Virus record (IMG/VR): IMGVR_UViG_3300013093_003530
Location: 1-39,185 of that record
DNA length: 39,185 nucleotides
Origin: a virus
Direction: 5' to 3' (one strand)
Below the pieces are notes generated by a model. That model had not been told where the DNA came from and did not search any database. It saw only the letters and a list, made by a program, of their open reading frames with translations. A program made the position numbers and the translations under genes. Positions 17,318 to 34,090 of the stretch are shown piece by piece. Position 1 is the stretch's first letter. Each line of letters opens with the position of its first letter.

Positions 17318-18187
17318 TTAAAAAATCTCAAATTCAATTTCAGTATCTCCAAATCCCCATGATTCATTATTTTCTGTTTTCTTTTGATATACTATAGCAC
17401 GATAAGGATCATTAGTTATTTTATTTATACCATCTAAAAATCCACCTCCACCTTTACCATGATTAATATGAAATAATGCAGGACTATATATTGCTTTTAA
17501 ACCAAAACCATGCATTACTGATTTTTTCTGTATATTAGTATCAGCATATAATGAATATATTAATTCTTCTTCAAATCCACGAATTGTATTCCATATTTCA
17601 TGTGATGCAATTTGATAATCACCACAACAATTAATCATACTATAGTCATCGCCATTTACAGTTGTTTCTTCGAAGTAACGTTCTTCTGAAGTAGTAATTA
17701 AATGTTCTCTTAATGATTTCCATTCTGCAAATGGTACTTCACCATTATGAAATGCTCTAATAGTATCCCAATCAGTATGTCTTCTACTAATAGTATAAAA
17801 AGTTTTAGAATCTAAATTATTAAGTGTATTCTCTAATTCATCACGTTTAGGATGAATAATATCAATATTAGTTGAAACTAACCAATCACCAGTTGCCCTT
17901 CTTAAACCAATGTTACGAGCTAATACTTCACAACATTTTTGAGCATTAGAATCATAATTAGTTAACATAGATGCTATTTCAGGAGTAATAACAATATGTT
18001 TAAAATTACCTTTAAAATTAATATTATTTTTAATATCATAAAGTAAACTATGAGTTTCACTATTCCAATCTACATAAATTACTTCATCGTAAGTATCTAT
18101 TGCTGAATTGAAACAATATGTTGCTCTTTCATTTAAATGTCCACCGTATCCATCATTTCGGGATACTATAACTGCTGATATTTTCAT
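17318..18187 (-). CDS. GT-A fold glycosyltransferase-like protein
   Basis: A 289-residue protein with GT2-like features: a nucleotide-binding start (MKISAVIVSRNDGYGGHLNE), a strand with YVDWNSET near residue 37, and ARNIGLRRATGDWLVSTNID near 90-109. In the latter the NID is in the place of the usual DxD metal motif. The substitution of the first Asp means activity is uncertain. Later Trp/His/Asp-rich segments could form an acceptor site. It is the last gene of the sugar operon and overlaps the preceding stop by one base. The sugar and acceptor cannot be predicted. Confidence 0.75.
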   Translation of the reverse strand: MKISAVIVSRNDGYGGHLNERATYCFNSAIDTYDEVIYVDWNSETHSLLYDIKNNINFKGNFKHIVITPEIASMLTNYDSNAQKCCEVLARNIGLRRATGDWLVSTNIDIIHPKRDELENTLNNLDSKTFYTISRRHTDWDTIRAFHNGEVPFAEWKSLREHLITTSEERYFEETTVNGDDYSMINCCGDYQIASHEIWNTIRGFEEELIYSLYADTNIQKKSVMHGFGLKAIYSPALFHINHGKGGGGFLDGINKITNDPYRAIVYQKKTENNESWGFGDTEIEFEIF

Positions 18188-19125
18188 TATTTAAAACTAT
18201 TAAAGTAAATTTCTAAGAATTTTTGTGTTTGTTCTGGGATATAATCGTTGCTGATATAGGGGTTTATAGTAAAATCTAATGTATTTCTATAACCAATAAT
18301 TTCTTTTTCTAAATTAACAATTAAATCTTGAACGTTTCTATCTTGATAAACAGATGCTCTATTATAAATTAATCGGTCAGATCCAATAATATTTTGAGTG
18401 TAATAACCACCCCAAATGTCATCCATTCTACCTACATAAGGCCATACTGCATAGTGTTTTAAGGCATCTCTATGAATAAATGTATTTTGAGAATTAAATG
18501 GTGAAGGAACGTCTGCTGCAAATGGTCCTGTAATATTAAATTTACAAATTGGTTTTTGAGTTAATCTACACATTGCATCAATATCAGGATCACCATCCCA
18601 TAAATCAGCTTGAATTAATGGTACAATTGTTCTCTTACCCTTATATTCAACTCTATTTCTATAAGGTAAAAAATCAATTGGGTAACCTCTATGCCATAAA
18701 TTAGGATAATTAGTTACGGATAATGGATCAAATACTGAATGTTCTGGTGAATAATAATCAACTTCTACATGTTTACCAATATATAAATTAGTTCCCCAGT
18801 TATCATATGGGATATTATCATCATCAACTGTAGCTACTATTTCAGCACCATTATTATAAGCATAAACGAATCCAATATTACGACGTTGAATTGTTTTCCA
18901 ACCAATAGTCTCACTTAATTCAGGGTATAATTCTGTTTGTCTGTCTGGGTGTAGGTACTCTACATATGGATGGTAGGTTTTTTCTAGTTCTTTATAAGCT
19001 TCATGTGGTGTTTTAGTATCACCAACAATTACAAATACCCACTTATTATATACTGCTATTTCAGCAAATCTATGAGTTGCTACTGTTGGTTGATTGATTG
19101 TTGTTGTAACTATATATCTTTTCAT
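18187..19125 (-). CDS. STELLO-like (DUF288) glycosyltransferase
   Basis: The 312-residue product begins MKRYIVTTTINQPTVATHRF and has VGDTKTPHEAY near residue 35, QRRNIGFVYAYNNGAE near 80-95 and TVDDDNIPYDNW near 98-109. The D-D-D is the probable metal and nucleotide-sugar site. These features match the STELLO/DUF288 family, glycosyltransferase-like proteins known from plants, algae and some bacteria and viruses. I chose the ATG at 19123-19125, which overlaps the upstream TGA (ATGA), over the ATG at 19143. Acceptor and donor are unknown. Confidence 0.8.
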   Translation of the reverse strand: MKRYIVTTTINQPTVATHRFAEIAVYNKWVFVIVGDTKTPHEAYKELEKTYHPYVEYLHPDRQTELYPELSETIGWKTIQRRNIGFVYAYNNGAEIVATVDDDNIPYDNWGTNLYIGKHVEVDYYSPEHSVFDPLSVTNYPNLWHRGYPIDFLPYRNRVEYKGKRTIVPLIQADLWDGDPDIDAMCRLTQKPICKFNITGPFAADVPSPFNSQNTFIHRDALKHYAVWPYVGRMDDIWGGYYTQNIIGSDRLIYNRASVYQDRNVQDLIVNLEKEIIGYRNTLDFTINPYISNDYIPEQTQKFLEIYFNSFK

Positions 19126-20009
19126 TTGTGTGTTTTTATCCATTGTTCAATATAATAAGGAAATTTCGATTCTACAACCTGTCTTTGATTTTCTATTTTA
19201 TTTAATGAAAGTAAATCTTTGTAATAATCTGCAAAGTTACCTTTATCTTCTTTATTTGGATGATATTCAAATATAATTTGATTTCTTAAAACATATTCTT
19301 TAATATCAATACCATTTTTAACAGCTATATCTGAAACTAACATACTGTAATAATCCCAAGGACCATATCCTTTCCAATCATCAGGTATTGGAATTAACTC
19401 CATAAAGTCTTTACTATATAAGTCAAACCACCCAGCATATTTAAAATGAGTTGTTTGTTGTAAATTTGGTTCACCTAATACTCGGGATTGTATTTCAAAT
19501 ATATCTGATTTATTCCAATCACTGTAAGGTACCTGTTGATAATTTTCATTTACTAATTCATCCCATGTCCAATCCCATAATTTATGTATTTCTGGGATGA
19601 TAATGAAATGTTTATCTTTAATTTGTTTAGCTGCCTCTATAATATAAAATAGAGTATGTTCATGAAACCACATATCAGGACAAATTGACATGTAATAATC
19701 AATTTTAGGGTCCATTTGTATTTTTTCTAAATCTAAATGTCCCCACAATTCATCTCCCTCGTATATAGTAACGTTTACATCTTCAGCCCAATCTAGCATC
19801 TTAAGATTAGCATTAAATTTATTAATGAAATATTCTTTAGGTAATTTAGATTCGTTCCAATTAATAATATGAGATGATAAATTTAACCCAATATGAAAGT
19901 AAATTTTATCATCAGACAAATGTTGCGATGCTTTTTTAAGTTGCATAAATTGAAGTAGAGCATAGTCTACTTCCCAAGGCATATAATGTATCTTTATTTT
20001 AACGTTCAT
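19122..20009 (-). CDS. Putative glycosyltransferase, 295 aa
   Basis: A soluble protein rich in Trp, Tyr and Asp. KIDYYMSICPDMWFHEHTLF at about residues 103-122 resembles the donor-site strand of GT-A enzymes, and YAGWFDLYSKDFMELIPIPD with KGYGPWDYY (about 192-222) resembles an acceptor/base region with an essential W-D. No close family is recognised, so the glycosyltransferase label rests on this pattern and on the position between other transferases. ATGA overlaps on both sides show translational coupling. Confidence 0.62.
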   Translation of the reverse strand: MNVKIKIHYMPWEVDYALLQFMQLKKASQHLSDDKIYFHIGLNLSSHIINWNESKLPKEYFINKFNANLKMLDWAEDVNVTIYEGDELWGHLDLEKIQMDPKIDYYMSICPDMWFHEHTLFYIIEAAKQIKDKHFIIIPEIHKLWDWTWDELVNENYQQVPYSDWNKSDIFEIQSRVLGEPNLQQTTHFKYAGWFDLYSKDFMELIPIPDDWKGYGPWDYYSMLVSDIAVKNGIDIKEYVLRNQIIFEYHPNKEDKGNFADYYKDLLSLNKIENQRQVVESKFPYYIEQWIKTHK

Positions 20010-20782
20010 TTTAACTTATTATATACTTGTTTAATTCCTTCTCTAAGCCCAATAAATTTTATTGGTAAAGTACTTCTATACTTAGACATGTATTCGCTAA
20101 TACCTTCTTCCTGTATCACAATAGGAACCTTATAGTCGGATAGGAAATTAATTTCATTTTCTGCTATGTGAGCTAAAGTATCAGTCCAAATATTATAAAC
20201 ACAATCAAATTCTTTAGGAGGGTTTTCCTCGTTAATATAATACTCTACTACTTTAATTAAATCCTGCATATAAAAGAAATCCATTGCTTTATCTTGGTGA
20301 ATTTGTATTGGTTCCTTTGCTATGTACCTTTTAATACTAGCCTTAATAAATCTAGTATCTAATTCATTTTCATCAAATACTCCAAAGATTTTAATATTAT
20401 AAAAGTTATCTTGATTTAAAATAGATTTAGCAATAACCTTTTTACTATATCCATAAGGTTCTTTAGGCATATAAGTTTCAGCTCCAGATCCAAAATGAAT
20501 TAATCTAGTATAGTGTTTACGAAACTGTAACAGATTATAGTACATTATTAAGTTTTTATCCATTACATTCCAACCATCTTCTTTTAATCTACTCCCACCA
20601 GCAACGGCACAATGTATTACTATATCAAAATGATGTTTGCTTTGAAAGAATTTAGACATAGCTACTAGGTCTGTTAGATCAAAGCTAGCTCTAGTAACTG
20701 CTGTTACAAAGTGTGTATCTCTTAAAGCATTGTGTAGGGTCTTACCAATGTATCCATTAGCTCCTGTAATTAATATTCTCAT
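20006..20782 (-). CDS. NAD(P)-dependent epimerase/dehydratase (extended SDR)
   Basis: A 258-residue extended SDR. The Rossmann motif GANGYIG is at residues 7-13, and YGYSKK supplies the catalytic YxxxK at about residues 131-135. Family members epimerise, dehydrate or reduce nucleotide-linked sugars. The short C-terminal region means the sugar-binding lobe is reduced, as in some 4-ketoreductases. Lying directly downstream of the split transketolase, it may reduce or epimerise the sugar made by the RmlB/RfbH/transketolase steps. It overlaps both neighbours by 4 nt. Confidence 0.82.
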   Translation of the reverse strand: MRILITGANGYIGKTLHNALRDTHFVTAVTRASFDLTDLVAMSKFFQSKHHFDIVIHCAVAGGSRLKEDGWNVMDKNLIMYYNLLQFRKHYTRLIHFGSGAETYMPKEPYGYSKKVIAKSILNQDNFYNIKIFGVFDENELDTRFIKASIKRYIAKEPIQIHQDKAMDFFYMQDLIKVVEYYINEENPPKEFDCVYNIWTDTLAHIAENEINFLSDYKVPIVIQEEGISEYMSKYRSTLPIKFIGLREGIKQVYNKLK

Positions 20783-21258
20783 CGCTTTAAGTTTATATAA
20801 GTTGCTTTCTCTTTTGTTAAACTATACTCAAATGCTTTTTCTAACTCACTGTCGTTATCTGGCCAAAAACATACAACGTTATCAAATGCTAACATAATTT
20901 CACCATCATCTTCTGCCCAATGTGAAAATCCTAAGTAACCATAATCTTTATTTCTACCTCCACCAATAATATTAACTGGAATATTTTCATGATCTAAATA
21001 GTTACGAATCATTTCAAATGGTCTATAAATAGCAAATGGAGTAATTGAATACACATAAGGTATTTTACCTTCCATTGCTAATCCAATTCCAATACCCATC
21101 ATAGCCATTTCAGATGAACCCACGTTATAGAATCTATCTGGGTATGTGTTTTTAATATTATCCCATAATCCATATCCTAAATCGCCTGTAATAAGATAAA
21201 TATCTTTATTAGTAGCCATTTTATCAAATAGCAGTTTTGCAAATAATTTTCTAGTCAT
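20779..21258 (-). CDS. Split transketolase, pyrimidine-binding subunit
   Basis: A 159-residue protein equal to the Pyr domain of transketolases. ITGDLGYG is at residues 23-30 and YNVGSSEMAMMGIGIGLAME at 44-63, in which E50 should be the catalytic glutamate that activates the thiamine pyrophosphate aminopyrimidine. The aromatic region VYSITPFAIYRPFEMIRN follows. The C-terminal third domain of full transketolases is missing, as in other split transketolase-like pairs. It pairs with the adjacent gene 21251-21874 (overlap 8 nt) and should form a heterotetramer that moves a two-carbon ketol unit. Confidence 0.85.
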   Translation of the reverse strand: MTRKLFAKLLFDKMATNKDIYLITGDLGYGLWDNIKNTYPDRFYNVGSSEMAMMGIGIGLAMEGKIPYVYSITPFAIYRPFEMIRNYLDHENIPVNIIGGGRNKDYGYLGFSHWAEDDGEIMLAFDNVVCFWPDNDSELEKAFEYSLTKEKATYINLKR

Positions 21259-21874
21259 TGTTTGAATTTAAAACTTCGTTATAATTTTCTTCATTCATTA
21301 CATGATAGTGAGCGTTTAATCCTTTTAAGAAAGAATATTGTTCTACTGAAGTATGATGTATTTGGATGCTAGGTAGGAAAGATTTAAGTCTTTCTTCCAG
21401 ATATAAAGAATCAACTTCCATATAAGCAGCATATCCATTTACATTAACATGTACTTCAATATTATTTATTTTTTGCTCTACTATAGTTTTTAATGATTCC
21501 CAGATACTTCCTTCAGCAGCCTCTCCATCACTAATTAATACTTTAACTTTTCTATTAGGATTAGCTATAGCTCTACCTAATGCAATAGTTAAACCTAAAC
21601 CTAATGATCCCGTAGAACAATAAATTCCGCTTTCTTCATCTCTATGAGGATGACCACCATGTTTAATAAATAAGGCCTCAGCATTTTGACCTTTATATTT
21701 TTCTAAACAAACATATAAAGCTAAAGCAGCGTGTCCTGAAGATAAAATGAATATATCATCTTCATTCATTTTAGAATAGATTTCATCTATAATATCAACA
21801 CTAGAAAAATAACTTCCTAAATGCCCTAATTTATTTTTATAAGCAATTTCTGCTATTCGTTTTTTTAAATTCAT
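21251..21874 (-). CDS. Split transketolase, TPP-binding subunit
   Basis: A 207-residue protein equal to the PP domain of transketolase. Motifs: LGHLGSYFS at about 16-24, SSGHAALALY at 45-54, TGSLGLGLTIALG at 88-100, and SDGEAAEGSIWE at 115-126. The last matches the thiamine-pyrophosphate/Mg motif G-D-G-x-x-x-E-G with the first Gly as Ser; the N that normally ends this motif appears later in the VNVNGY segment. I chose the ATG at 21872-21874, which shares one base with the upstream TAA (TAATG). It forms the two-gene transketolase with 20779-21258. Confidence 0.87.
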   Translation of the reverse strand: MNLKKRIAEIAYKNKLGHLGSYFSSVDIIDEIYSKMNEDDIFILSSGHAALALYVCLEKYKGQNAEALFIKHGGHPHRDEESGIYCSTGSLGLGLTIALGRAIANPNRKVKVLISDGEAAEGSIWESLKTIVEQKINNIEVHVNVNGYAAYMEVDSLYLEERLKSFLPSIQIHHTSVEQYSFLKGLNAHYHVMNEENYNEVLNSNND

Positions 21875-22821
21875 TACCAAATAAATTTATTTTTATAATA
21901 TTCTACTATAGCTGGAAGTTCTTTATCGAATTCAGCTTGAGGTTCCCATCCTAATGCTCTCAACTTAGAATCATCTAAAGCATATCTAACGTCTTGTCCT
22001 GCTCTAGAATATGTTAAATCAAGATAATTTTCTACATTATCTCCATTATGTGCTTTAATAACTTTAGAAACAGTATCATAATTTGATTGTTCAAATCCGC
22101 CTGCTATATTGTATATTTCATTTTGAACTCCTGCTTCAATAATTGTAATAATAGCTTGCGCTGTATCAGAAGCATGCAACCAATTTCTAATAGGTGTTCC
22201 GTTATTATGTAAAGGTATTTTTCTACCTAATTCTAGATATTTACAAGTTTTAGGAATTAATTTTTCAACATATTGACCTATACCATAATTGTTAGTTGGT
22301 CTAACAATAATATAAGGTAATTTATATGTTCTGCCCCAAGCTAACACTAACATATCTGCAGCTGCTTTAGTTGCTGAGTATGGGTTAGATGGTTTTAATA
22401 AATCTGTTTCTATGTGAGCGCCATTATCAATATCACCATACACCTCATCAGTACTAAAGTGTATTAATGTAGGTAATTTAGGAGATTCATGTCTATAATT
22501 TTTAATTAAATTAAGTAAATTATGAACACCATCAATATTAGAATGAACAAATGCATCACTATCAGCAATTGAATTACCAACATGTGTTTCAGCAGCTGTA
22601 TTAATTATATAATCACATTCGTATAAGAATTTTATATCATTAATATCTTCATTTTCAAATTCAAAGTTATCATATTCATTAAATTCTATTAATAAATTAG
22701 TATTAGCAGCATATGTGCATTTATCAATACCTCTTACATGCCATCCTTGTTTCAAACATAATCTAGTAACATGTGAACCTATAAATCCTAAACACCCAGT
22801 TATATATACTATTTTCTTCAT
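21874..22821 (-). CDS. RmlB-like NDP-glucose 4,6-dehydratase
   Basis: Converts an NDP-glucose (usually dTDP-glucose) to the 4-keto-6-deoxy sugar. It shows GCLGFIG at residues 9-15, NTAAETHVGNS at 74-84, STDEVYGD at 123-130 with the catalytic T-D-E triad, YSATK (Y148, K152), and RPTNNYGIGQYVEKLIP at 174-190. These are diagnostic of RmlB and close relatives. At 315 residues it is slightly shorter than typical RmlB. It lies between the RfbH-like dehydrase and the split transketolase, overlapping both by one base, which suggests sequential action. Confidence 0.9.
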   Translation of the reverse strand: MKKIVYITGCLGFIGSHVTRLCLKQGWHVRGIDKCTYAANTNLLIEFNEYDNFEFENEDINDIKFLYECDYIINTAAETHVGNSIADSDAFVHSNIDGVHNLLNLIKNYRHESPKLPTLIHFSTDEVYGDIDNGAHIETDLLKPSNPYSATKAAADMLVLAWGRTYKLPYIIVRPTNNYGIGQYVEKLIPKTCKYLELGRKIPLHNNGTPIRNWLHASDTAQAIITIIEAGVQNEIYNIAGGFEQSNYDTVSKVIKAHNGDNVENYLDLTYSRAGQDVRYALDDSKLRALGWEPQAEFDKELPAIVEYYKNKFIW

Positions 22822-24134
22822 TATAATTGATTAATAAATTTATCTAATATTGTTTCTATATAATCCGTTTTTTCTTTTGTTATTACAGGTGATGTACCTA
22901 AGAAAAATGTATCTGTAGTTACTTTTCTAGCCACAGGATATTTTTCAATTACTTCTTTAGAATTAACTAAATGTGAATATCCAGGTTGTAACATAATATT
23001 ACCTGCAAAGTAAGGACGTGTTTGTATTTTATGTGCTTCGAAGAACTGACATATATCAGAACGTTTAAATGGAGCTCCATCTTTAACTGTTACTGGAAAT
23101 GCAAACCAATCAACATCAGCCCCTGGTTGTGCTTCATGTAAATGGAAATATTGTTTATACTTATTAAAAGCAGTAAATAAATTCTTATAATTTTCTCTAC
23201 GTTTAATTCCTATTTCTTCTAATTTTTCCATTTGAACTAAACCCATTGATGCTTGTAATTCAATTGGTTTTACATTATATCCAATTTCCTCATAAACATA
23301 TTTGTGATCAAATACATCATCTGGTAATGAAGGTAACCAATTATTAAAACGACAATCACATGCTCCGTTTTCTAATAAGTTTTGTTTACCAACACAATAA
23401 CATCCTCTACCCCACTCTCTAAAACTACGAACAATGCGTTCATTATTTTGTGTATTCATTGCTACGAATCCACCTTCACCCATTGTCATATGGTGAGCTG
23501 GGTAGAATGAACAGCTAGCCATTTCACCAAATGATCCTAATGGTTTACCTTCAAATGTAGAACCTAAAGCATCACAACAATCCTCTAATAATATCAAATT
23601 GTATTTTTCAACAATTTCCATTAATCGATTCATGTTAGGTGGATTACCTAATACGTGAGCGAATGTTATAATTTTAGCATCAGGATTATCAATACAGGCT
23701 TGTTCAACTTGATCTAAATCGAGGTTTAATGTTTCAAGCTCGATATCAACGAATATAGGGACGAATCCAACTTGGATAATTGGTGCCATAGTAGTTGGGA
23801 AACCAGCTATTGGAGTAATTACTTTCGTTCCTTTAAGCAGATTATGACCGCGTTTAGAGGTCATAGCGGCCATCATTAATAGATTAGCGCTTGAACCACT
23901 ATTAGTTAATAAACCATATTCCTTACCAAATAATTTAGGAAACTTACGCTCAAATTTAATTGCATCAGCACCTAATACTAACCACTCACCTAATAATGAT
24001 CTAACAGCAGCAACATATTCTTGTGAATCAAAATATGGACCTGCATATTGAACCCAGTCTTTGCCTGCGGTCCACGACTTTTCAGAATGTTTCTTCTGAA
24101 TATACTCATCTACTAATTTTAATATTTCTTGCAT
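22821..24134 (-). CDS. RfbH/DdhC-type PLP and Fe-S sugar 3-dehydrase
   Basis: A 437-residue DegT/DnrJ/EryC1-fold enzyme that removes the C3 hydroxyl from a 4-keto-6-deoxy NDP-hexose, giving the 3,6-dideoxy series. The PLP site reads NSGSSANLL at 78-86 and EDCCDALGS at 184-192 (D188 expected to bind the pyridine N). At the position of the usual PLP lysine it has FYPAHHMTMGEGG (210-222) with His, the hallmark of the 3-dehydrase subclass. WGRGCYCVGK (C245, C247) and GACDC (C259, C261) supply cysteines for the [2Fe-2S] cluster of the E1/RfbH class. No separate reductase is seen in the window. Confidence 0.9.
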   Translation of the reverse strand: MQEILKLVDEYIQKKHSEKSWTAGKDWVQYAGPYFDSQEYVAAVRSLLGEWLVLGADAIKFERKFPKLFGKEYGLLTNSGSSANLLMMAAMTSKRGHNLLKGTKVITPIAGFPTTMAPIIQVGFVPIFVDIELETLNLDLDQVEQACIDNPDAKIITFAHVLGNPPNMNRLMEIVEKYNLILLEDCCDALGSTFEGKPLGSFGEMASCSFYPAHHMTMGEGGFVAMNTQNNERIVRSFREWGRGCYCVGKQNLLENGACDCRFNNWLPSLPDDVFDHKYVYEEIGYNVKPIELQASMGLVQMEKLEEIGIKRRENYKNLFTAFNKYKQYFHLHEAQPGADVDWFAFPVTVKDGAPFKRSDICQFFEAHKIQTRPYFAGNIMLQPGYSHLVNSKEVIEKYPVARKVTTDTFFLGTSPVITKEKTDYIETILDKFINQL

Positions 24135-24143: not shown

Positions 24144-25040
24144 TTAACTAAAGAATTCTGAACAACCACATTGTTCTTTAAAGAATTTAATTGTATCATC
24201 ATTAAACCAGTTAGTTTTAAAGTCATTAATTAATTCTCTAAATGACTCAATTGGTCGACCCCCTAACCCCTCTACAAAGTGAAAACATTTAATTTGTTTA
24301 TGATCATGAGTATATAATTTATTATCATTAACATACCAATATCTAATTGGAGATGGTTGCCCATCATATTGAGGACCACATTTAGCTAATAATCCTTTTT
24401 TAATCATATCAGTACCAAATACACCTTTAGAACGAGCATTATATACTACTTTACTAGTTGGATATGGTGCATCTACAATTTTAACTTCATACGATTTATC
24501 AGTAAATGCTAATTCATTTAATCCACCTTGAATTGAGAAATGACAATAATGTTCAATACTCAAATCAATTACTTTTTTCAAAGCATCAGCACTGTTAAAG
24601 CAAGTTACATCAGCATTAACATTCATATGATCCATAATAATATTTCCATCAGGTAATGTTACTTGAGCTATAGGAGTAATCCAATGTTCTGTTCCATCTT
24701 GATTTGGATAATTTAATGATGCAAGTACTGGGGTGGTATTATCATCTAGAAATTCATCTAATCTATTACAAACAATAGTATCAGTTCCTAATACAATTAT
24801 TTTTTCATAGTTATATTTTTTCATTATTTCATAAGCATAAATGAATTGCATTAGAAATGTTTCGGGAGCAAATTCATAATACTCTAACATTTTATTATAC
24901 TCTTCTTGATTAGTATAATCGATTTGATGGTAATCACATTCATTACCATTATGTGCTAAGAAACTATTTTTAACGTTTTTAGCTAATTCATCGTATCTGT
25001 CGTCAGTATAATATACTACACAACCTACTTTTTTACTCAT
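24144..25040 (-). CDS. GT8-like glycosyltransferase
   Basis: A 298-residue GT-A enzyme with VYYTDDRYDELAKN near 9-22, IVLGTDTIVCNRLDEFLD near 82-99 (DTD as the DxD metal site), NADVTCFNS near 142-150 and HFSIQGGLNELAF near 168-180. These resemble the donor-binding and acceptor motifs of GT8-family transferases. The C-terminal Cys-containing tail (QCGCSEFFS) is unusual. It starts 4 nt after the RmlD-like gene start region (overlap with 25037) and is followed by the RfbH-like gene after a 9-nt gap. Donor and acceptor unknown. Confidence 0.8.
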   Translation of the reverse strand: MSKKVGCVVYYTDDRYDELAKNVKNSFLAHNGNECDYHQIDYTNQEEYNKMLEYYEFAPETFLMQFIYAYEIMKKYNYEKIIVLGTDTIVCNRLDEFLDDNTTPVLASLNYPNQDGTEHWITPIAQVTLPDGNIIMDHMNVNADVTCFNSADALKKVIDLSIEHYCHFSIQGGLNELAFTDKSYEVKIVDAPYPTSKVVYNARSKGVFGTDMIKKGLLAKCGPQYDGQPSPIRYWYVNDNKLYTHDHKQIKCFHFVEGLGGRPIESFRELINDFKTNWFNDDTIKFFKEQCGCSEFFS

Positions 25041-25726
25041 ATACTATTATTTATTAAACTTGTGTCTTTAGGTAATGTTTTCTTTTGTTCTTCGGACATT
25101 GTTATAGGCTCAGCTACAAGTCCGTTTTTAATATACAAATCATATAATGACATCCTTTCAGAAGATATATGAACTATTTTTTCTTCGTTTTTAAAGATAT
25201 TATTAATTATCTTTCCTACAACTTCGTTTAGAAAGTATCTAGAACAATATTGATCAGTAAATACTTTAGGATATATTTGTCTGATAAATGGTGCTCTTAT
25301 AATCTGGTAGTTTGGAGCTGTTGAAACAATATATTCAGATGCTGCTTTTGTTTTGCCATAAACATTAATAGGATCTAACTTATCGTTAATAGTATAGTTA
25401 CCTTTATCTCCACTAAACACATATTCAGAAGAAATATAAACTAATTTACAATTTAAATTTAAACAAGCTTTAACTATATTAGCAGTACCTATAACATTAA
25501 CATCAATTGCTTTTTTAATATCATTTTCACATCCAAACGTATCTACAAATGCTGCTAAATGAATAATATAATCTGGTTTAAAGATAGATATTACTTTATT
25601 TAGTTTTTGTTCATCTAGAATATTACAAAATGTGTTGCTTGGTGCAAACACATCGGCTCCAAGAGATATATATTTTACTAACTCTTTACCTAAGTATCCA
25701 CTACCTCCTGTTACAAATATTTTCAT
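25037..25726 (-). CDS. RmlD-like NAD(P)-dependent sugar reductase
   Basis: A 229-residue short SDR resembling dTDP-4-dehydrorhamnose reductase. GGSGYLG is at 7-13, IHLAAFVDTFGCENDIKKA near 55-73, YISSEYVFSGD near 97-107 and NVYGKTKAASE near 121-131 with YxxxK. It probably reduces a 4-keto-6-deoxy NDP-sugar made by an RmlB-type dehydratase in the same operon. No RmlC epimerase is found, so the product need not be rhamnose. It overlaps both neighbours by 1-4 nt. Confidence 0.82.
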   Translation of the reverse strand: MKIFVTGGSGYLGKELVKYISLGADVFAPSNTFCNILDEQKLNKVISIFKPDYIIHLAAFVDTFGCENDIKKAIDVNVIGTANIVKACLNLNCKLVYISSEYVFSGDKGNYTINDKLDPINVYGKTKAASEYIVSTAPNYQIIRAPFIRQIYPKVFTDQYCSRYFLNEVVGKIINNIFKNEEKIVHISSERMSLYDLYIKNGLVAEPITMSEEQKKTLPKDTSLINNSI

Positions 25727-27093
25727 TATTTAATATAAGCTGTTAAATTATGATTTCTATGTATTTTACCTGTTCCTGGATTTAGTGAATCTTCATATAC
25801 TAATGTATAATTAGGATTAATTTCTAGTAATTTTTCTTTTACTTTTTCACCATTACCAAAATAATTAGGCATATCATCTACTATAATAGTATGTGTTTTA
25901 ATTGGATGATTTTTTAATATCTCTAATTCTTTCCATAATGGATCTCCATTATTAAAATGTCCGTCTAAAAATATTAAAGATGGTTCCTTAATTAATTCGA
26001 GCATTTCTTCCATTCGTTCATTTGAATCACCTAAAAATAAATGTACTTTATTTTTTTCAATTTCATCCTTAAAACGTTCAACACATCCTTCATAAAATTC
26101 CGGTAATATTTCAATTGATATTACTTCCTCAAACCCCATATTTAAAGCATTTTGAACACCATCTCCTTTATGAGTACCTGTTTCAAAAAATAATTTATGA
26201 TTGCCTTTATATTTTTTAAATAGTTGATCATAAGATAATACTTTATCTTCTATATTGTTAAATTCAACTAATGTTTTAATCATTGTTTTAAAACGACCAA
26301 ATAAATCACCATAATATTTAGCTAATTCGCTATTGTAATCTATTGCTTCTTTTCTTTCAGCATAGAATTCAGGTGTTAATTTATTTACAGCCTCAATAAT
26401 TTGATCTTCATTTTCACAATAAATAAATCCATCTGGGTTGTAACCTAATTCTTCTAGATTGGGACAACCCCAATAGATAGGAAATGTTTTAGAAATAAAA
26501 GCATCAATAATTTTTTCAGTATGATAATTTCTATTTGATGAGTTTTCAATTGCAATAGTAAACATACTTTCCCATAATACCTTCTTACCATACATGTCTG
26601 TTACAGTATGATGACCATTATTATAATCATAATCAGGTAAAGTATAATGCCATTGTTTAGGAATAGTAATTTCATTTTCACGTTTATATAATCTGTGTCT
26701 TAAATGATGACCCTCAATTCTTTGTTTACCACCACATAAAAATGATACTTCAAATCGTTTTTGAATATTATCTACATTATCAACATATTCCTTATCTAAC
26801 CAAGTAATACCCATTGGAAAGAATAAAGCATTAGAACAATTATCTAATATCTCTTGTCCACCTGTTAATATACAACTAAATGAATGGTGATTTTGAAGTG
26901 CCCAATCATGAATACCAAATAATTGATTTGGTTCTAATACCATTAAAATATTAAATGGATTAAATTCAAGCTGTTCTGAGGTTACACTAGGGTAATCATT
27001 AAACACAGAAATAGGTTTATTGATTAATTCAGGTATATTAACGGCTGCTTCAAGTTCATTCTGTGGAATAAAATTAGAATATATTTTAAGCAT
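25726..27093 (-). CDS. Fusion of GT10 fucosyltransferase and SAM methyltransferase
   Basis: A 455-residue two-domain protein. Residues about 1-275 are a GT10 (alpha-1,3/4-fucosyltransferase) fold: the donor motif is FTIAIENSSNRNYHTEKIID at 178-197, followed by AFISKTFPIYWGCPNLEE. Residues about 290-455 form a class I methyltransferase: FFETGTHKGDGVQNAL at 302-317 (motif I), a strand ISIEILPEF ending in the acidic residue, and SLIFLDGHF at 372-380. It could add a GDP-linked deoxy or L-sugar and O-methylate the product. GT10 donors are GDP-sugars, which fits the GDP-mannose epimerase in this operon. Confidence 0.86.
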   Translation of the reverse strand: MLKIYSNFIPQNELEAAVNIPELINKPISVFNDYPSVTSEQLEFNPFNILMVLEPNQLFGIHDWALQNHHSFSCILTGGQEILDNCSNALFFPMGITWLDKEYVDNVDNIQKRFEVSFLCGGKQRIEGHHLRHRLYKRENEITIPKQWHYTLPDYDYNNGHHTVTDMYGKKVLWESMFTIAIENSSNRNYHTEKIIDAFISKTFPIYWGCPNLEELGYNPDGFIYCENEDQIIEAVNKLTPEFYAERKEAIDYNSELAKYYGDLFGRFKTMIKTLVEFNNIEDKVLSYDQLFKKYKGNHKLFFETGTHKGDGVQNALNMGFEEVISIEILPEFYEGCVERFKDEIEKNKVHLFLGDSNERMEEMLELIKEPSLIFLDGHFNNGDPLWKELEILKNHPIKTHTIIVDDMPNYFGNGEKVKEKLLEINPNYTLVYEDSLNPGTGKIHRNHNLTAYIK

Positions 27094-28168
27094 CTATTTT
27101 ATAGTTAAAGTTTTCTAAGTATTTGTTGAATATTTTATTTATTACTTCTTCATCAATTTCAAAGTAAGGAGAAGTTGAAACCATATCAAATATCGATTTT
27201 ATACGATATGCAATCATTTCTTCATCATCTATCTTTACATTTGAATCTATGACTGATATTTTATCTTTCCAAACTAATGGTAGATCATTTAGTGTAAATT
27301 TATAATCAGTTCCTGATGTATTATAAGCGTAGTAATTATTATTTTTTAGGTTAATGTTAGTCCATCCTTCTATATAATCATCATATCCATATCTAATTTT
27401 AATATCATTTTCAAAGAACCCAATTGGTATATCAATTGCAGGACATTGATTATTATCTATAATTGGTTGTACATGTTGGTAACCATCAAAATGTCTACAT
27501 AGTTCCTTAAGTGGTACTATTACTTTATGCATAGGCATAGGCTTAATTTCAGCTAATCCAATTCCAAAGAAATCAGGTCTACCTAATTTAATATGATTAA
27601 ATTCACCTTCAAACCACCATCTACGGTATAATTCTTTAGTTATAATCTGAATACTATCAAAATTAATAGATTCAAATGAAATATGGTTATTGTGAATAGT
27701 GTATTTAGGGTTACTCTTAGCTGTCCTTATATTTTCAGGAAAATGAGAGAATTGTAATGAACATAATTCTTCATCTTTTATTTTATTAACTAATTCAGCT
27801 AAATAATCTTTGGATGAATCAAAGAATATATGGTCATGATTACAATAATACCAGATTAAGTTATCATCCAATAATTCATAATCTTGTTTCCAATCATTTT
27901 GATATTCACTTCTCTGCCAAGTTAAAACTAAATTAAATTGGCTAAAGTTATCTCTAATAAATTGTTCTAATTCATCTTGTCTATGTTTATAACAATCGTC
28001 TAATGATATTTTTAATATCACTTTACTCCAATTATAAGCAATAGCTAAACTAGATAATGAATATTTAAATATATCTAAATTGTTAAAGGATTTTAAATTA
28101 TCTCTAACTACATTTCCTTTTCCAAATGGTTTTGCTTCAGTAATGAATGTGTTACAGAATAATATCAT
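27086..28168 (-). CDS. Putative glycosyltransferase, 360 aa
   Basis: A large soluble protein with a Rossmann-like beginning (MILFCNTFITEAKPFGKGNV) and the segment DDNLIWYYCNHDHIFFDS near 107-124, whose HDH sits where GT-A enzymes have DxD. RRWWFEGEFNHIKLGRPDFF near 196-215 is Trp/Asp-rich, like an acceptor site. I do not recognise a close family, so glycosyltransferase is inferred from the pattern and context. It overlaps the HAD gene upstream by 17 nt and the GT10 fusion downstream by 8 nt. Confidence 0.6.
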   Translation of the reverse strand: MILFCNTFITEAKPFGKGNVVRDNLKSFNNLDIFKYSLSSLAIAYNWSKVILKISLDDCYKHRQDELEQFIRDNFSQFNLVLTWQRSEYQNDWKQDYELLDDNLIWYYCNHDHIFFDSSKDYLAELVNKIKDEELCSLQFSHFPENIRTAKSNPKYTIHNNHISFESINFDSIQIITKELYRRWWFEGEFNHIKLGRPDFFGIGLAEIKPMPMHKVIVPLKELCRHFDGYQHVQPIIDNNQCPAIDIPIGFFENDIKIRYGYDDYIEGWTNINLKNNNYYAYNTSGTDYKFTLNDLPLVWKDKISVIDSNVKIDDEEMIAYRIKSIFDMVSTSPYFEIDEEVINKIFNKYLENFNYKIDA

Positions 28169-28511
28169 TGATACCTTTATTACGTTCTATATTAATAGCG
28201 AATGCTGTTTCTTGTCCACTAGGCTTATTATCATTAATTACAATTCTAGGTCCACCACCTATACCCATAATTAAATGATCATAAAATATACCTAATTCAG
28301 CTAATTGTCTTTCAGTAGCAACTCGCATTGATTCTCTTCTACCTGTAATTAGAATTATATTATAACCTTTAGTATCCCATTCAGATAATTTTTCAATGGT
28401 GCCTGGTAGTAATTCTAGTAGGTTGTTTGGTGATGTGTTTTTAGTTGGAATATTATGTTTAACTAATGTTCCATCTATATCACATATAATTGTTTTTGGG
28501 CGGGTATCCAT
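28152..28511 (-). CDS. HAD-family phosphatase
   Basis: A 119-residue minimal HAD domain. IICDIDGTLVKHN at 8-20 has the nucleophile D11 and D13, LITGRRESMRVATERQL at about 54-70 the T/S motif, and INDNKPSG at about 97-104 the acidic loop with K. No cap domain is present. Similar small HAD proteins occur in phage and capsule clusters and remove phosphate from sugar phosphates, as in heptose and deoxy-sugar assembly. It overlaps the KbaZ-like gene by 32 nt, so the two are coupled. A sugar-phosphate substrate is inferred from context. Confidence 0.85.
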   Translation of the reverse strand: MDTRPKTIICDIDGTLVKHNIPTKNTSPNNLLELLPGTIEKLSEWDTKGYNIILITGRRESMRVATERQLAELGIFYDHLIMGIGGGPRIVINDNKPSGQETAFAINIERNKGINDIIL

Positions 28512-29469
28512 ATAACTGATTTAATTTTCTCGTAACGTTTAATTTTATTTTTTCATCTATACCTGGAAATTGTGATTTTATTTCTAAGATAAATTCAGGG
28601 TAAGATAAAACATAATGACCACAAATTTTGATTAGTTGTTCTTTATTATAGTAAGGATCAAATCCAGGATTAACCCATTTTACCCATTTTTTAGAATCAT
28701 AGCATATTTGCCAAAATTTATCAAATGTTTTATCATCTTTAATTTCACTAAGATAAGTTAAAGTTTCTATTAATCCAAATTCAGGAGCAATGTTTATACA
28801 ATCTAATCCTAAATCAAATTTTTCTTTAATTACTTCTACAGGAATATAGTCACCATTATGTTCTTTAGAAATTAAATTATAACGTTTAGCTACTTTAATC
28901 ATTTCTTTTAAACGCTCAGCATCATAATTACCTGTTTGATTAGTACCTTTAAGTGATGTACCTGATTGGATAACTAAATATCTTATATGTTCATATATTT
29001 CTTTAGGTAAAGCAGACCACAAATCTATTACTAGTTGATCTAATTCTTCTGCCTCAAATGGTCTAATTGCTTCTTCAGTACCAACCTCAAATATTAATTT
29101 AGGGTTAATGGAATAAGCAAACTTAATCATTTCAATTGTTTGTTCTAATCCATCGGCATATCTAGGATATTTCTTCCAAGGATCAATATGAATTAAATCA
29201 AAATATTTAGCATCATAAGCTAATGATTCAAATCCATCATCATCATTATTACCTTGTCCAGGACCACCATGATCACGTTGTAGTGGTAATGTAGTAACAT
29301 AGTTACTAAATTCTTCTGTAGTCCAATTATTTACATATCCTCCATTCCATTCTACTTGACGACGTGAAGGAATTAATCCTATAGTATTACCGGTATTAGA
29401 ACAGAATTCAACTATAGCATCTACAATGTTTTTAGACATTGGTCCAATAAAATACTTTATATCATCCAT
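28480..29469 (-). CDS. KbaZ/GatZ-like TIM-barrel protein
   Basis: A 329-residue protein. LIPSRRQVEWNGGYVNNWTT at about 32-51, then PLQRDHGGPGQG near 62-73 and YFDLIHIDPWKKYPRYAD near 92-109, parallel the family signature of D-tagatose-1,6-bisphosphate aldolase GatZ/KbaZ subunits: E-x-x-Q-V-N-x-x-G-G-Y, then G-D-H-x-G-P, then K-I-H-x-D. Here the Glu-Thr-Asn part is R-R-Q-V-E-W. Family members are non-catalytic aldolase subunits or uncharacterised aldolases. Placed among sugar-activation genes, it could make or split a ketose phosphate. The homology is my reading of motifs and needs a profile search. Confidence 0.6.
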   Translation of the reverse strand: MDDIKYFIGPMSKNIVDAIVEFCSNTGNTIGLIPSRRQVEWNGGYVNNWTTEEFSNYVTTLPLQRDHGGPGQGNNDDDGFESLAYDAKYFDLIHIDPWKKYPRYADGLEQTIEMIKFAYSINPKLIFEVGTEEAIRPFEAEELDQLVIDLWSALPKEIYEHIRYLVIQSGTSLKGTNQTGNYDAERLKEMIKVAKRYNLISKEHNGDYIPVEVIKEKFDLGLDCINIAPEFGLIETLTYLSEIKDDKTFDKFWQICYDSKKWVKWVNPGFDPYYNKEQLIKICGHYVLSYPEFILEIKSQFPGIDEKIKLNVTRKLNQLYGYPPKNNYM

Positions 29470-30083
29470 TTTGTATAAATTTTATATTGTTCTTCAGCTT
29501 GTAAATCAGCTATTGCTCTACCTTGTCCTTCAACAAATGGTCTACCATCAATTAATGTTCCTTTTACTTGTACATCTACAGGTGTAGCGTTAAATACAGT
29601 ACCTTCTAAATAGGATACTTTATCCCATTCCGCTCTAAGAATAAATCTGCAAGGTATATTTAACTGGATACAAGCATATTCTACTGCTTTACCAAACCCT
29701 CCATTACCTAAAATAAATAATTGTTCTGGTTTAGTTGATGATGAAAAGTAATTATATACCCCCATCCAATCAGTATTATATGCTTTTAAAAATCCATTAC
29801 TGTTTACTACAGTATTGGCGGCACCAATTACTCTAGCAGGAAAATCTACATCATTAACATAATCTAATACCTCTACTTTAAATGGCATACTAACTGCAAA
29901 ACCTGCAAAATCTAATGTTTTAGCTGCTATAACCGAGTTTCTGATATTATCTGAATAGAATGATTTGTAAATAGCATTTATGCCATTTTCTTGGAATTTA
30001 TTATTAAAGAATATACAGCCATTATTCCCCGGATTAGAGGAAAATGAGCCGTATATCTTTGTATCTTTATTTATAGTGTTCAC
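29457..30083 (-). CDS. Shikimate dehydrogenase (AroE)-like protein
   Basis: A 208-residue AroE-fold protein. FAVSMPFK at 62-69 holds the K69 that corresponds to the catalytic lysine. AANTVV at 88-93 and YNTDWMG at 102-108 (D105) complete the shikimate-binding site, and LGNGGFGKAVEYA at 125-137 is the nucleotide-binding loop. The N-terminal S-x-S-P signature is replaced by FSSNPGNNG. The C-terminal part is about 60 residues shorter than normal AroE, so the usual Q residue region is partly lost. The start is a GTG at 30081-30083. It is probably not housekeeping shikimate synthesis; reduction of a keto-sugar or keto-cyclitol is more likely. Confidence 0.78.
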   Translation of the reverse strand: MNTINKDTKIYGSFSSNPGNNGCIFFNNKFQENGINAIYKSFYSDNIRNSVIAAKTLDFAGFAVSMPFKVEVLDYVNDVDFPARVIGAANTVVNSNGFLKAYNTDWMGVYNYFSSSTKPEQLFILGNGGFGKAVEYACIQLNIPCRFILRAEWDKVSYLEGTVFNATPVDVQVKGTLIDGRPFVEGQGRAIADLQAEEQYKIYTKWMI

Positions 30084-31983
30084 TTAATAATTCGATTGCT
30101 TTAAACCATAACATTTTTCCAAATTTCTCATCATGTAATGGAGACATGTTTAAAAATATTATAGCGGTTATTAATTTTACTTTATTTAAATCAAATCCAT
30201 TTTCAACTAACCAATCTTTATAGTGATCTCTAAATTCATGTAGATCTTCACTAACATAGTAATCATAATTAACTATTGTAGAACCTTCATAAAATTCAAT
30301 AGCATCTTCTTTCTTCATCATATTATAAGGAATAATACTACCACCATATAATTTAGCTAAATCATAGTAAATATCACCACCTTTTGTTGACCCTCCAAAT
30401 GATTCTCTCCAATCAATATAAGTAAATTTGTGTGTACGATTATCCCAGATTATATTATCAAATTGTAAATCACCATGAAATAATGTATACATTGGATTAT
30501 CATAAAATATATTTGTATCATGTTGTTCTAATATAGAATTCATTGATTTATATTTCTTACCATTGATAGTATATTCTTGATCAAAATATTCAAATCCAAA
30601 TCTATCTAAAAAAGCCATTAAACGCTCTTTAGTTTTAATGCCATAAAATTTATCAAATAATTCTTTATCACCATAGTATTTATCACTTCTAATAATATTA
30701 GATTTCAACTTATCTAAAAATTTATTATAAACATAACTTGAATCATGATAATATAATGTATTGCCATATTCCCAATTATAACCAATAAAATTATCTGTTG
30801 ATGTAAATCCTGAAGGTATTAATTCTTTTAATATTTTAGCACGTTCTGCTTTATTTTTATTAATGTCTTTATTAGGGGTAAATTTAATAAATTTATCTGC
30901 TTTATAAGTAATTTCATCTGTTACTTTATACAATGATAAAGGATTATCGTTAAAATATTCTTTAGTTCTGTTTAAATCATCTAAATTACCTGTATCTAAC
31001 CATTTTAAATGCTTAGCTTTAAAACCAGGATATTTAGATATATTTTCAAATGCAGATACTATTTCTCCATTTTTCATATTAGCCTCTAATTCACTCCAAA
31101 ACACATCAAAATCCCAAATACTAGCTAATCCGATAAAAGCATTATCATAACCTTCAGTACTTTTATTTACAAATGATAATACATTATCATCTTTATCTAA
31201 TTGTGCTGTAGAATATTTTTCAGGATAAGCTGTAGGATAAACACCTATCCAGTTACCATCTAAGTGAGGCATTTTAGAATCAATAATACAATCCGCTACT
31301 ACAAAGTAAAATGGGCGTTGTAAGTATTGTTTACATTGTAGTGATGAATAACCAGGACCTGATCCTTCACCTTCATACTTGTTAACATCAACAAAATAAA
31401 AATTATGTTCTGGATAAGCTAATTGGCAATATTGTTGTAATTCTTCACCTTTATAGCCTAAACAAACTACAAAGTCGTATTCCTTAGGAAATTTATCTAT
31501 AATATAAGATATAATAGCTTTGTTATCAATTGGTAACATTGCTTTATTTATATTTTTAGTTAAATTACCTAAACGAGAACCTAATCCAGCAGCTAATATT
31601 AGTACAGCTGGTGTTTTATGTTCAGCTTCTACTTTACCATCTGCTCTATGAAATTCATCATCTATTCTAACAACATCATCTACGTGTGGTGTAGATACCT
31701 CTTGTAAAATAATATCTGTAATAGCTATTACTCTATGTTTTTTAGGAGGTGTTACATTAAAGAACTCTCCACCTTTCATTATTTTCTTTTCAACTACACC
31801 TTCATCATTTTCTAACCATACTTCAGCTTCACCTGAAATGATATAGTTAGTTTCTTTTTTAAAGTTATGATATTGAAATGATGTTTTATAGCCAGCGTTG
31901 ATATAAATTCTCTTATAGCAATAAGCATCATTTAACTCAAGCCATTCTTCCTTACCCCAAGGTTTATGAACTACTTTATACAT
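30067..31983 (-). CDS. Tri-domain cupin / nucleotidyltransferase / kinase
   Basis: A 638-residue fusion. Residues 1-115 are a cupin like the mannose-6-phosphate isomerase type II domain (KPWGKEEW, then SFQYHNFKKETNYIISGEAE). Residues 125-355 are a sugar-phosphate nucleotidyltransferase (LILAAGLGSRLG at 128-139, FVVADCIIDSK near 227-237). Residues 380-638 are an APH/choline-kinase-like domain with LFHGDLQFDNIIWD at 501-514 and YIDWRE at 522-527, the catalytic and metal-binding residues. It could phosphorylate a sugar, isomerise or sense it, and activate it to an NDP-sugar in one polypeptide. The substrate is unknown. Confidence 0.87.
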   Translation of the reverse strand: MYKVVHKPWGKEEWLELNDAYCYKRIYINAGYKTSFQYHNFKKETNYIISGEAEVWLENDEGVVEKKIMKGGEFFNVTPPKKHRVIAITDIILQEVSTPHVDDVVRIDDEFHRADGKVEAEHKTPAVLILAAGLGSRLGNLTKNINKAMLPIDNKAIISYIIDKFPKEYDFVVCLGYKGEELQQYCQLAYPEHNFYFVDVNKYEGEGSGPGYSSLQCKQYLQRPFYFVVADCIIDSKMPHLDGNWIGVYPTAYPEKYSTAQLDKDDNVLSFVNKSTEGYDNAFIGLASIWDFDVFWSELEANMKNGEIVSAFENISKYPGFKAKHLKWLDTGNLDDLNRTKEYFNDNPLSLYKVTDEITYKADKFIKFTPNKDINKNKAERAKILKELIPSGFTSTDNFIGYNWEYGNTLYYHDSSYVYNKFLDKLKSNIIRSDKYYGDKELFDKFYGIKTKERLMAFLDRFGFEYFDQEYTINGKKYKSMNSILEQHDTNIFYDNPMYTLFHGDLQFDNIIWDNRTHKFTYIDWRESFGGSTKGGDIYYDLAKLYGGSIIPYNMMKKEDAIEFYEGSTIVNYDYYVSEDLHEFRDHYKDWLVENGFDLNKVKLITAIIFLNMSPLHDEKFGKMLWFKAIELLSEHYK

Positions 31984-32978
31984 TATTGTTTATTTACTTG
32001 TTTATTAATCCATTCATAAGTGTGAACAAGACCTTCATATAATGGGTAATTTGGAACCCAATCTAATTTTTCTTCAATTAGTTTATTATCTGAATTTCTA
32101 CCTCTAACCCCTGTAAATCCAGGTATGTTTTTGATAGTGATGTTTTTACCACTAATATCAATTGCATATTGAGCTAATTGATTAATAGTAACCATTTCTT
32201 CACTACCAAGATTAACTGGACCTTCAAAATCAGAACGCATTAATTTTAAAATACCATTCACACACTCGTCAATATATAAAAATGATCTTGTTTGTAAACC
32301 ATCACCCCATACTTCAATTTCTCCACCATCTGGTGTTTCAGCTACTTTACGGCACATTGCTGCTGGTGCTTTTTCTTTTCCACCTGTCCAAGTACCTTCT
32401 GGTCCAAATATATTATGAAAACGAGCTACACGAACATCCAAATTATAATTACGTTTAAAAGCTAAATATAAACGTTCACTAAATAATTTTTCCCAACCAT
32501 ATTCAGAATCTGGGTTTGCAGGATATGCACTTGATTCTTCACAATTAGGATTATTAGGATCTAACTGATTATGTTCTGGATACATACATGCTGAGGAACT
32601 ATAAAATACTCGCTTAACTGATTGTTTAGTTGCTTCATGAGCAACATTTAAATTAATTAATGCAGAATTATGCATTACGTTAGCATCATTGTTGCCTGTA
32701 AAAATATATCCAGCTCCTCCCATATCTGCTGCTAATTGATATACTTCATCAAATGAATTTATTTTATCATCTAATGAAGTTTGATTTGGAGCAAACATAA
32801 CTTTAGATACTATTAATGGATCTCTAAGATCACCAATAATAAAATCATCTGCTGCTGTTTCCCAATATTCAGGATATTTTAAATCTACTCCTCTAACCCA
32901 AAATCCTTCTGATTTTAATCTTTTAACTAAATGGCTTCCTATAAAACCACCTGCTCCTAATACTAATGCTGTTTTCAT
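31983..32978 (-). CDS. GDP-mannose 3,5-epimerase-like protein
   Basis: A 331-residue extended SDR. The Rossmann motif is GAGGFIG at 8-14. AADMGGAGYI at 83-92, SSACMYPE at 128-135 (C131), YGWEK (Y160, K164), FHNIFGPEGTWTGGKEKAPA at 187-206 (K203), WGDGLQTRSFLYIDECV at 224-240 and GVRGRNSDN follow the plant and bacterial GDP-mannose 3,5-epimerase signature, including the acid/base Cys and Lys pair. The product would be GDP-L-galactose or GDP-L-gulose. A one-base overlap with the next gene and a 4-nt overlap upstream couple it to neighbours. The family match is strong; activity is inferred. Confidence 0.9.
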   Translation of the reverse strand: MKTALVLGAGGFIGSHLVKRLKSEGFWVRGVDLKYPEYWETAADDFIIGDLRDPLIVSKVMFAPNQTSLDDKINSFDEVYQLAADMGGAGYIFTGNNDANVMHNSALINLNVAHEATKQSVKRVFYSSSACMYPEHNQLDPNNPNCEESSAYPANPDSEYGWEKLFSERLYLAFKRNYNLDVRVARFHNIFGPEGTWTGGKEKAPAAMCRKVAETPDGGEIEVWGDGLQTRSFLYIDECVNGILKLMRSDFEGPVNLGSEEMVTINQLAQYAIDISGKNITIKNIPGFTGVRGRNSDNKLIEEKLDWVPNYPLYEGLVHTYEWINKQVNKQ

Positions 32979-33589: not shown

Positions 33590-33600
33590 GAACTTTTTAT

Positions 33601-33629
33601 TTTTTTTAAATATAATAAATTATTTTGAC
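33601..33629 (-). promoter_or_regulatory. Class 1 promoter-like element at head of sugar operon
   Basis: Minus strand TGTCAAAATAATTTA then TTATATTTAAAAAAAA. TCA AAA TAA is also the Ser-Lys-stop of the zinc-ribbon gene upstream. No further copy is found until 15649, implying one transcript from 33589 to about 17318. Confidence 0.68.
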
Positions 33630-34024: not shown

Positions 34025-34051
34025 AATTTATATTTTTTATATTGTAAGTAT

Positions 34052-34070
34052 TTGTTTGATATGTAAATAT
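34052..34070 (-). promoter_or_regulatory. Class 2 promoter-like element
   Basis: Minus strand ATATTTACA, 4 nt, AAACAA, 28 nt before the ATG at 34024. One base differs from the best copies. Confidence 0.5.
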
Positions 34071-34090
34071 TATATTTCCTATATTATCCA

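Follow-up and report, generated by a model that had tools for sequence, protein, structure and literature searches.

The window analysed here is a virus fragment of 39,185 bases (IMG/VR record IMGVR_UViG_3300013093_003530), which carries on its minus strand, in transcription order, the genes of an RfbH-type 3-dehydrase, an RmlB-type 4,6-dehydratase, the two halves of a split transketolase (TK-N and TK-C) and an SDR; neighboring genes overlap by 1-8 nt (Table 1). All ORFs of this five-gene run were recovered with the positions, order and overlaps given in the initial annotation. For TK-N, an ATG at 21874, sharing 1 nt with the RmlB stop, is a likelier start than the TTG. The three genes that follow the cassette are presumed to encode glycosyltransferases or accessory proteins; one of them (17318-18187) matches Pfam GT2 at 1.6e-5, and profile searches returned no family match for the other two.

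Table 1. Features of the cassette and of the surrounding glycan island in the window.
Feature	Position	Strand	Evidence and remarks
Three genes downstream of the cassette	17318..20009	-	Tight spacing to the cassette; one GT2-like, two without family match
Short extended-SDR reductase	20006..20782	-	258 aa; Pfam Epimerase 8.6e-20, RmlD 4.9e-11
TK-C, short transketolase Pyr-domain subunit, without C-terminal domain	20779..21258	-	159 aa; Pfam Transket_pyr 4.6e-14
TK-N, short transketolase PP-domain subunit	21251..21880	-	209 aa from TTG; Pfam Transketolase_N 8.7e-7
RmlB-type NDP-glucose 4,6-dehydratase	21874..22821	-	315 aa; TIGR01181 295 bits
RfbH/E1-type PMP + [2Fe-2S] NDP-4-keto-6-deoxyhexose 3-dehydrase, first in the run	22821..24134	-	437 aa; NCBIfam RfbH 457.9 bits
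Remaining glycan island	24144..36851	-	Sugar-gene and glycosyltransferase matches
RmlD-like SDR, glycan island	25037-25726	-	
GT10-like protein, glycan island	25726-27093	-	
HAD-type phosphatase	28152-28511		
Cupin-nucleotidyltransferase-kinase-like fusion, glycan island	30067-31983	-	HddC similarity weak, 33 bits
SDR, glycan island	31983-32978	-	
GT2, glycan island	32975-33589	-	
Two GT1-type transferases, glycan island	34091-36851	-	

Pfam, PDB matches and structural models all place the transketolase-superfamily fold (PP and Pyr domains) in the two halves of the split enzyme. The closest structures are 6yak, the N chain of a split transketolase, for TK-N (model pLDDT 91.6; Foldseek TM 0.83) and 6yaj, the C chain, for TK-C (pLDDT 87.4; TM 0.85). 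This top match for both halves, the enzyme of Carboxydothermus hydrogenoformans, likewise distributes PP and Pyr domains over two chains, but these comprise about 309 and 341 residues and include a C-terminal domain, whereas the phage pair counts 209 and 159 residues. In fact, no C-terminal domain follows the Pyr domain of TK-C, and short TK-C subunits measure about 155-184 aa, against 302-333 aa in the long split enzymes. In the tree, the short transketolases form a clade of their own (100 SH-aLRT), separate from full-length split transketolases. Across 62 phage and 30 bacterial short transketolases, H20, H50, H77, D118, N148 and H191 of TK-N and the catalytic glutamate E50 and H113 of TK-C are invariant, and based on alignments and family knowledge we take them to be the known transketolase catalytic residues. 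The clade also possesses invariant residues of its own on a substrate-side loop (R102-D/N-x-D/E-Y, N156). The subunit sizes, and low-scoring hits against sulfopyruvate and benzoylformate decarboxylases, would suit a two-subunit 2-keto-acid decarboxylase, or a YerE-like transferase of acyl rather than ketol groups, using pyruvate or another keto acid; nevertheless, transketolases match better and the transketolase histidine set is invariant, and we regard such an enzyme as very unlikely. A sharper argument, built on the phosphate-binding Ser and His that the short enzymes have lost, was abandoned because the outgroup long split transketolases are also without both residues in the alignment.

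The accompanying enzymes retain the residues expected of their families. The RmlB-like protein remains under the equivalog cut-off of 365 bits for the dTDP-glucose 4,6-dehydratase profile and reaches only 69.6 bits against that for CDP-glucose 4,6-dehydratase; its active site, Thr-Asp-Glu together with Tyr-x3-Lys (YxxxK), is invariant in 73 sequences. RfbH scores above the NCBIfam cut-off of 423 bits and finds its best PDB match in E1 of Yersinia (1e-100), sharing with it the dehydratase His in the aminotransferase-Lys position and all four Fe-S cysteines. The characterised RfbH/E1 enzyme acts on a CDP sugar, and the dTDP-type appearance of RmlB is in this respect a point against a branched sugar. 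The SDR, which adjoins TK-C in the branch of the window, displays Ser, Glu and YxxxK motifs that are invariant in 45 relatives, and no close characterised relative of it was found, another point against a branched sugar. As the initial annotation had stated, no E3-like reductase is encoded within the window, itself a fragment, and no Fer2 domain of such a reductase was detected in 30 related phage records, also fragments; the phages differ in this from E1/RfbH systems, and host partners are possible.

The search for the same gene set elsewhere, which had been suggested as a check, was productive. Among 60 distinct TK-N homologues from IMG/VR, a set whose counts cover related phages and not independent events, TK-C adjoins TK-N in all 60, an SDR is present nearby in 59, and RmlB lies at positions -3 to +4 in genes from TK-N in 52, with 59-88% identity to the protein of the window. 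The clustering is thus not due to chance. At least three gene orders occur, with RmlB before the transketolase, RmlB after it, or transketolase, SDR, RfbH and RmlB in succession (MAG contigs L084-L086), and therefore the pairing of transketolase and RmlB survives rearrangement. What varies is RfbH: one branch carries RfbH or an Fe-S-free 3-dehydratase, and in the other methyltransferases take its place. Both types of 3-dehydratase paired with the transketolase carry the dehydratase His; the Fe-S-free variant (L024-L043) has kept it and not the Fe-S cysteines, and so resembles ColD as the RfbH of the window resembles E1. Since RmlB stays beside the transketolase where RfbH is missing, these two constitute the tightest pair. 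The same observation bears on the possibility that RmlB and RfbH supply an ordinary 3,6-dideoxyhexose while the transketolase and the SDR work on a different substrate. That a whole branch retains the transketolase without RfbH agrees with such a division into two products, as do six loci in which a 3-dehydratase, the transketolase and the SDR occur and RmlB was found neither nearby nor elsewhere in the records (up to 269 kb), a result that counts against the formation of a branched sugar; given the persistence of RmlB where RfbH is absent, however, we consider two products unlikely.

A role in central metabolism must also be weighed, in which the phage transketolase would be an auxiliary enzyme raising the pentose flux of the host for nucleotides and its place in a sugar island would be accidental. 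Besides the catalytic residues, the short enzymes conserve R3 of TK-C, presumably the Arg that binds the sugar phosphate in canonical transketolases, so that a plain phosphosugar reaction also fits, which counts against a branched sugar. Virome tkt genes have previously been read in this way (PMC4053976). Against this stand the nearly constant location of the transketolase among the RmlB and SDR genes of an NDP-sugar cassette, its extra-short architecture and separate clade, and the coexistence of short and full-length split transketolases in at least one bacterium; on balance an auxiliary pentose-phosphate enzyme appears distinctly improbable. The coexistence is seen in a Levybacteria genome, and an Omnitrophota genome with the short enzyme has additional TK-N matches. 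The bacterial short transketolases are flanked by genes for a methyltransferase, a GT2 and an SDR of the NDP-sugar type. Two further candidates were set aside: a split transketolase of Salmonella houtenae (tblastn), with a full C-terminal half and glycerol-kinase and transporter genes nearby, is a metabolic enzyme outside any sugar-nucleotide locus, and that of a Streptomyces aurantiacus plasmid, with full-length halves in a phosphonate/NRPS-PKS cluster, is not comparable. Isolated phages (INPHARED) provided no high-identity relative, the best match being below 40% over part of the protein, and a literature search without most subscription papers found no relevant paper on split transketolases in phages. 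Alternatively, the transketolase could supply sedoheptulose-7-phosphate to an NDP-heptose route, for which the window offers an HAD-type phosphatase and the nucleotidyltransferase-kinase-like fusion with its weak similarity to HddC. Yet both genes are missing from most of the transketolase loci and no SIS_2/GmhA-type isomerase was found in 30 phage records carrying the short transketolase, making a heptose route extremely unlikely.

Taken together, we hypothesize with moderate confidence that the product of the cassette is a deoxy sugar, nucleotide-activated and branched at C4, for which RmlB, the short transketolase and the SDR form an NDP-6-deoxyhexose bearing a two-carbon branch and RfbH adds a 3-deoxygenation that leads to a yersiniose-like sugar. 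From family knowledge and the active site observed here, the RmlB-type enzyme would convert NDP-glucose to NDP-4-keto-6-deoxyglucose, from which RfbH, with PMP, [2Fe-2S] and the conserved His and cysteines, would take off the C3 hydroxyl, leaving the C4 ketone and probably drawing electrons from ferredoxin or flavodoxin of the host, as SpnQ does. TK-N and TK-C may then act as a two-chain thiamine enzyme, taking a two-carbon ketol (glycolaldehyde unit) from a host donor, for example xylulose-5-P, fructose-6-P or hydroxypyruvate, and transferring it to C4, which would become a tertiary alcohol carrying a 4-C-hydroxyacetyl group as branch; since C1 is locked in the NDP ester and C4 is the sole carbonyl, this step would have to come after that of RfbH. 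Reduction of the ketone in the branch, expected of the SDR, would give a 1,2-dihydroxyethyl group, and phage-encoded glycosyltransferases could take up the finished sugar. In relatives without a 3-dehydratase, methyltransferases may modify the sugar instead.

The initial annotation had the split transketolase acting on an RmlB-derived keto sugar, and this is favored by the conservation of the pair in at least three orders, the separate clade, the canonical transketolase that bacteria with the short one can also carry and the absence of GmhA from 30 phage records, the ketol addition itself staying a prediction. To our knowledge, no transketolase, of the short family or of Streptomyces, has been demonstrated on a ketone acceptor, which counts against a branched sugar. 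The 3,6-dideoxy product needs to be narrowed: it suits the window, where RfbH is present, but given the replacement of RfbH by an Fe-S-free 3-dehydratase or methyltransferases in relatives, this enzyme lies outside the core, and the general product would be a branched 6-deoxy sugar, with a 3,6-dideoxy sugar among its variants.

The proposed route resembles those of YerE/YerF and ErwE to yersiniose and erwiniose in Gram-negative LPS, which combine a 4,6-dehydratase, a 3-dehydrase, a thiamine enzyme by which the C4 ketone gains carbon and, after it, a ketoreductase; YerE/ErwE branching takes place at C4 of CDP-4-keto-3,6-dideoxyglucose (PMC12247030). In contrast to these CDP-type pathways the phage dehydratase is dTDP-type, and in place of the YerE-like single-chain enzymes of the decarboxylase superfamily, which use 2-keto acids, the phage has a two-chain short transketolase. 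The addition of a two-carbon unit to a keto sugar by a split transketolase already has a precedent in Streptomyces, where split-gene transketolases of the miharamycin and amipurimycin clusters were proposed to transfer hydroxyacetyl to keto sugars (PMC12247030); those enzymes belong to other organisms and another pathway, and were compared by description. The pairs AviB1/AviB2 and Pau11/Pau12 are likewise two-component thiamine enzymes proposed for a two-carbon branch at C4, but they belong to a different thiamine-enzyme superfamily and would transfer acetyl from pyruvate rather than hydroxyacetyl. For the 3-dehydration, E1, SpnQ and ColD provide the chemical precedent (PMC8987622), and the association of a 3-dehydratase of the E1/RfbH/ColD type with a transketolase is new.

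More broadly, T4-like aquatic phages have these short split transketolases of two domains, and relatives of the enzymes occur in Patescibacteria and Omnitrophota; we see an even chance that they form a family dedicated to ketol transfer onto nucleotide sugars, using a ketone acceptor to build C4-branched octoses and providing phages with a branched-sugar chemistry of their own. If this is true, these enzymes would be compact candidates for establishing whether any transketolase accepts a ketone, a question that the Streptomyces enzymes also raise (PMC12247030), part of the virome tkt genes would serve glycan synthesis and not pentose-phosphate metabolism, and phages would build their own branched sugars.

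The source sequence, an IMG/VR virus record of 39,185 bases, probably represents a T4-like aquatic myovirus, since the product of the one structural gene looked at is about 37% identical to virion proteins of T4-like cyanophages. All five cassette genes of the initial annotation were borne out at the positions tabulated below. The RfbH and RmlB-like genes overlap by 1 nt, the RmlB-like gene and TK-N by 7 nt (or by 1 nt with the ATG at 21874 as the TK-N start codon), the two transketolase (TK) halves by 8 nt, and TK-C and the SDR gene by 4 nt.

Features of the window, with the properties of their products
Feature	Position	Strand	Properties
Structural gene	13658-15238
Glycan island	~17.3-36.9 kb	minus
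SDR	20006-20782	minus	short reductase-like member; YxxxK motif intact
TK-C	20779-21258	minus	159 aa; transketolase Pyr domain
TK-N	21251-21880	minus	209 aa; transketolase PP domain
RmlB-like	21874-22821	minus
RfbH	22821-24134	minus
GT10-like (fucosyltransferase-type) stretch	25726-27093		score just below cut-off; further C-terminal region beyond
Shikimate dehydrogenase-like	29457-30083		208 aa; matches these enzymes in their N-terminal part only; kept in a few related glycan islands
Fused protein	30067-31983		mannose-6-P-isomerase-type cupin, sugar nucleotidyltransferase and weak APH-kinase-like C-terminal part

RfbH passes its curated cut-off (457.9 bits against 423), aligns with E1 structures along its full length, and retains both the [2Fe-2S] cysteines and the histidine that takes the place of the aminotransferase lysine. 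The RmlB-like protein scores 295 bits as a dTDP-glucose and 69.6 bits as a CDP-glucose 4,6-dehydratase, the former value lying below the equivalog cut-off of 365, and its catalytic residues are invariant among 73 relatives. The E3-like reductase partner of RfbH had been noted as missing, implying a host substitute, and this was upheld: as no Fer2 domain was found in 30 related records (it was detected in 12 of 14 control genomes), the electrons would likely come from a host partner. SpnQ takes them from ferredoxin or flavodoxin systems (PMC8987622).

The structures nearest to TK-N and TK-C come from the split TK of Carboxydothermus, whose two chains the confident AlphaFold models (pLDDT 91.6 and 87.4) match with TM scores of 0.83 and 0.85, respectively. 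In a quick IQ-TREE analysis of TK-N plus TK-C, with full-length split TKs as comparison, phage and bacterial short TKs together formed one clade (SH-aLRT 100), within which the phage sequences fall into two groups nested among Patescibacteria, Omnitrophota and a few marine MAG sequences; some of these MAG contigs may themselves be phage. Compared with long TKs, R102 and Y106 are invariant in the short clade, D/N103 and D/E105 are near-invariant, and N156 is also characteristic; residues 101-120 of TK-C, the lowest-confidence stretch of its model, form the loop with most clade-specific residues. A TK-C of about 170 aa occurs in 2 of 192 genomes of the phylum sampled, where short TKs are hence rare, and 14 others carry the long form only. 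Short and long forms coexist in a Levybacteria genome, and an Omnitrophota genome has three additional TK-N matches besides its short TK, so that the short TK need not serve central metabolism. The Patescibacteria and Omnitrophota cassettes (SDR, in some a methyltransferase, TK-N, TK-C, GT2) likewise point to a sugar-nucleotide and glycosyl-transfer setting. Although tkt in viromes has been read as a pentose-phosphate gene (PMC4053976), the NDP-sugar setting of the TK and its separate clade count against such a role here.

The same gene set, sought elsewhere, proved to be a conserved phage cassette with more than one gene order. Scanning IMG/VR with TK-N gave at least 80 loci; among the matches listed, TK-C adjoins all 60 distinct TK-N sequences, RmlB lies within -3 to +4 genes in 52, and an SDR is present in 59 (in 34 of the window-like 258-aa type and in 25 of a type with 275 aa). 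As some of these phages are related to one another, the counts do not stand for independent events. RmlB precedes and SDR follows the TK in the window's branch, whereas SDR precedes and RmlB follows it in the other branch, which has methyltransferases in place of RfbH; three MAG contigs read TK-N, TK-C, a 300-aa gene, SDR, RfbH, RmlB. To judge from these arrangements, the pairing has outlived rearrangement. One phage record carries two short TK pairs, one adjoining RfbH and one the other branch's SDR.

Within -3 to +4 genes of the TK, the matches listed include 9 Fe-S 3-dehydratases, 9 short ones and, in 30 loci, a methyltransferase (FkbM or Methyltransf_24). The short RfbH-like enzymes (380-383 aa), which belong to loci between L024 and L043 and are exemplified by L026:6862-8004, have the catalytic histidine and none of the four Fe-S cysteines, their nearest structures being E1 and then ColD. 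In six loci with this enzyme, TK and SDR, RmlB was found neither nearby nor in the rest of the record, and these may rely on a host enzyme. RfbH is not near the TK in two loci (L004, L006), yet occurs elsewhere in the same record. In the other branch, 13 of the 14 records searched gave no RfbH match, and a 141-kb record (L047) gave one weak match, 32% over part of the protein. RfbH is thus the variable component: 3-deoxygenation is optional on top of the RmlB, TK and SDR core, and the methyltransferases are another option. As RfbH and TK can occur apart, it is possible that they serve two independent products. A heptose route finds no GmhA in 30 records.

Gene order, conservation and intact active sites are directly established. 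4,6-Dehydratases yield NDP-4-keto-6-deoxyhexoses; with C1 of the NDP-sugar locked, the C4 ketone is the sole carbonyl of this intermediate. E1, SpnQ and ColD remove the C3 hydroxyl and leave that ketone (PMC8987622). The TK would then move a two-carbon ketol onto it, probably after RfbH because RfbH itself requires the ketone, and the SDR would reduce the branch ketone. For C4 of CDP-4-keto-3,6-dideoxyglucose, YerE and ErwE perform the equivalent step from 2-keto acids (PMC12247030), in contrast to the ketol transfer postulated here; retention of the TK histidines makes a decarboxylase-type reaction of TK-N/TK-C less likely. A published analogue, likewise a proposal, is hydroxyacetyl transfer to a keto sugar by the split-gene TKs of the miharamycin and amipurimycin clusters, mentioned together with 13 more putative sequences, all from Streptomyces (PMC12247030). 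The initial idea of ketol addition to the C4 ketone is supported in part: we lean towards sugar branching by the TK as the best reading of the cassette, but RfbH is dispensable to it and a similar proposal is already in print.
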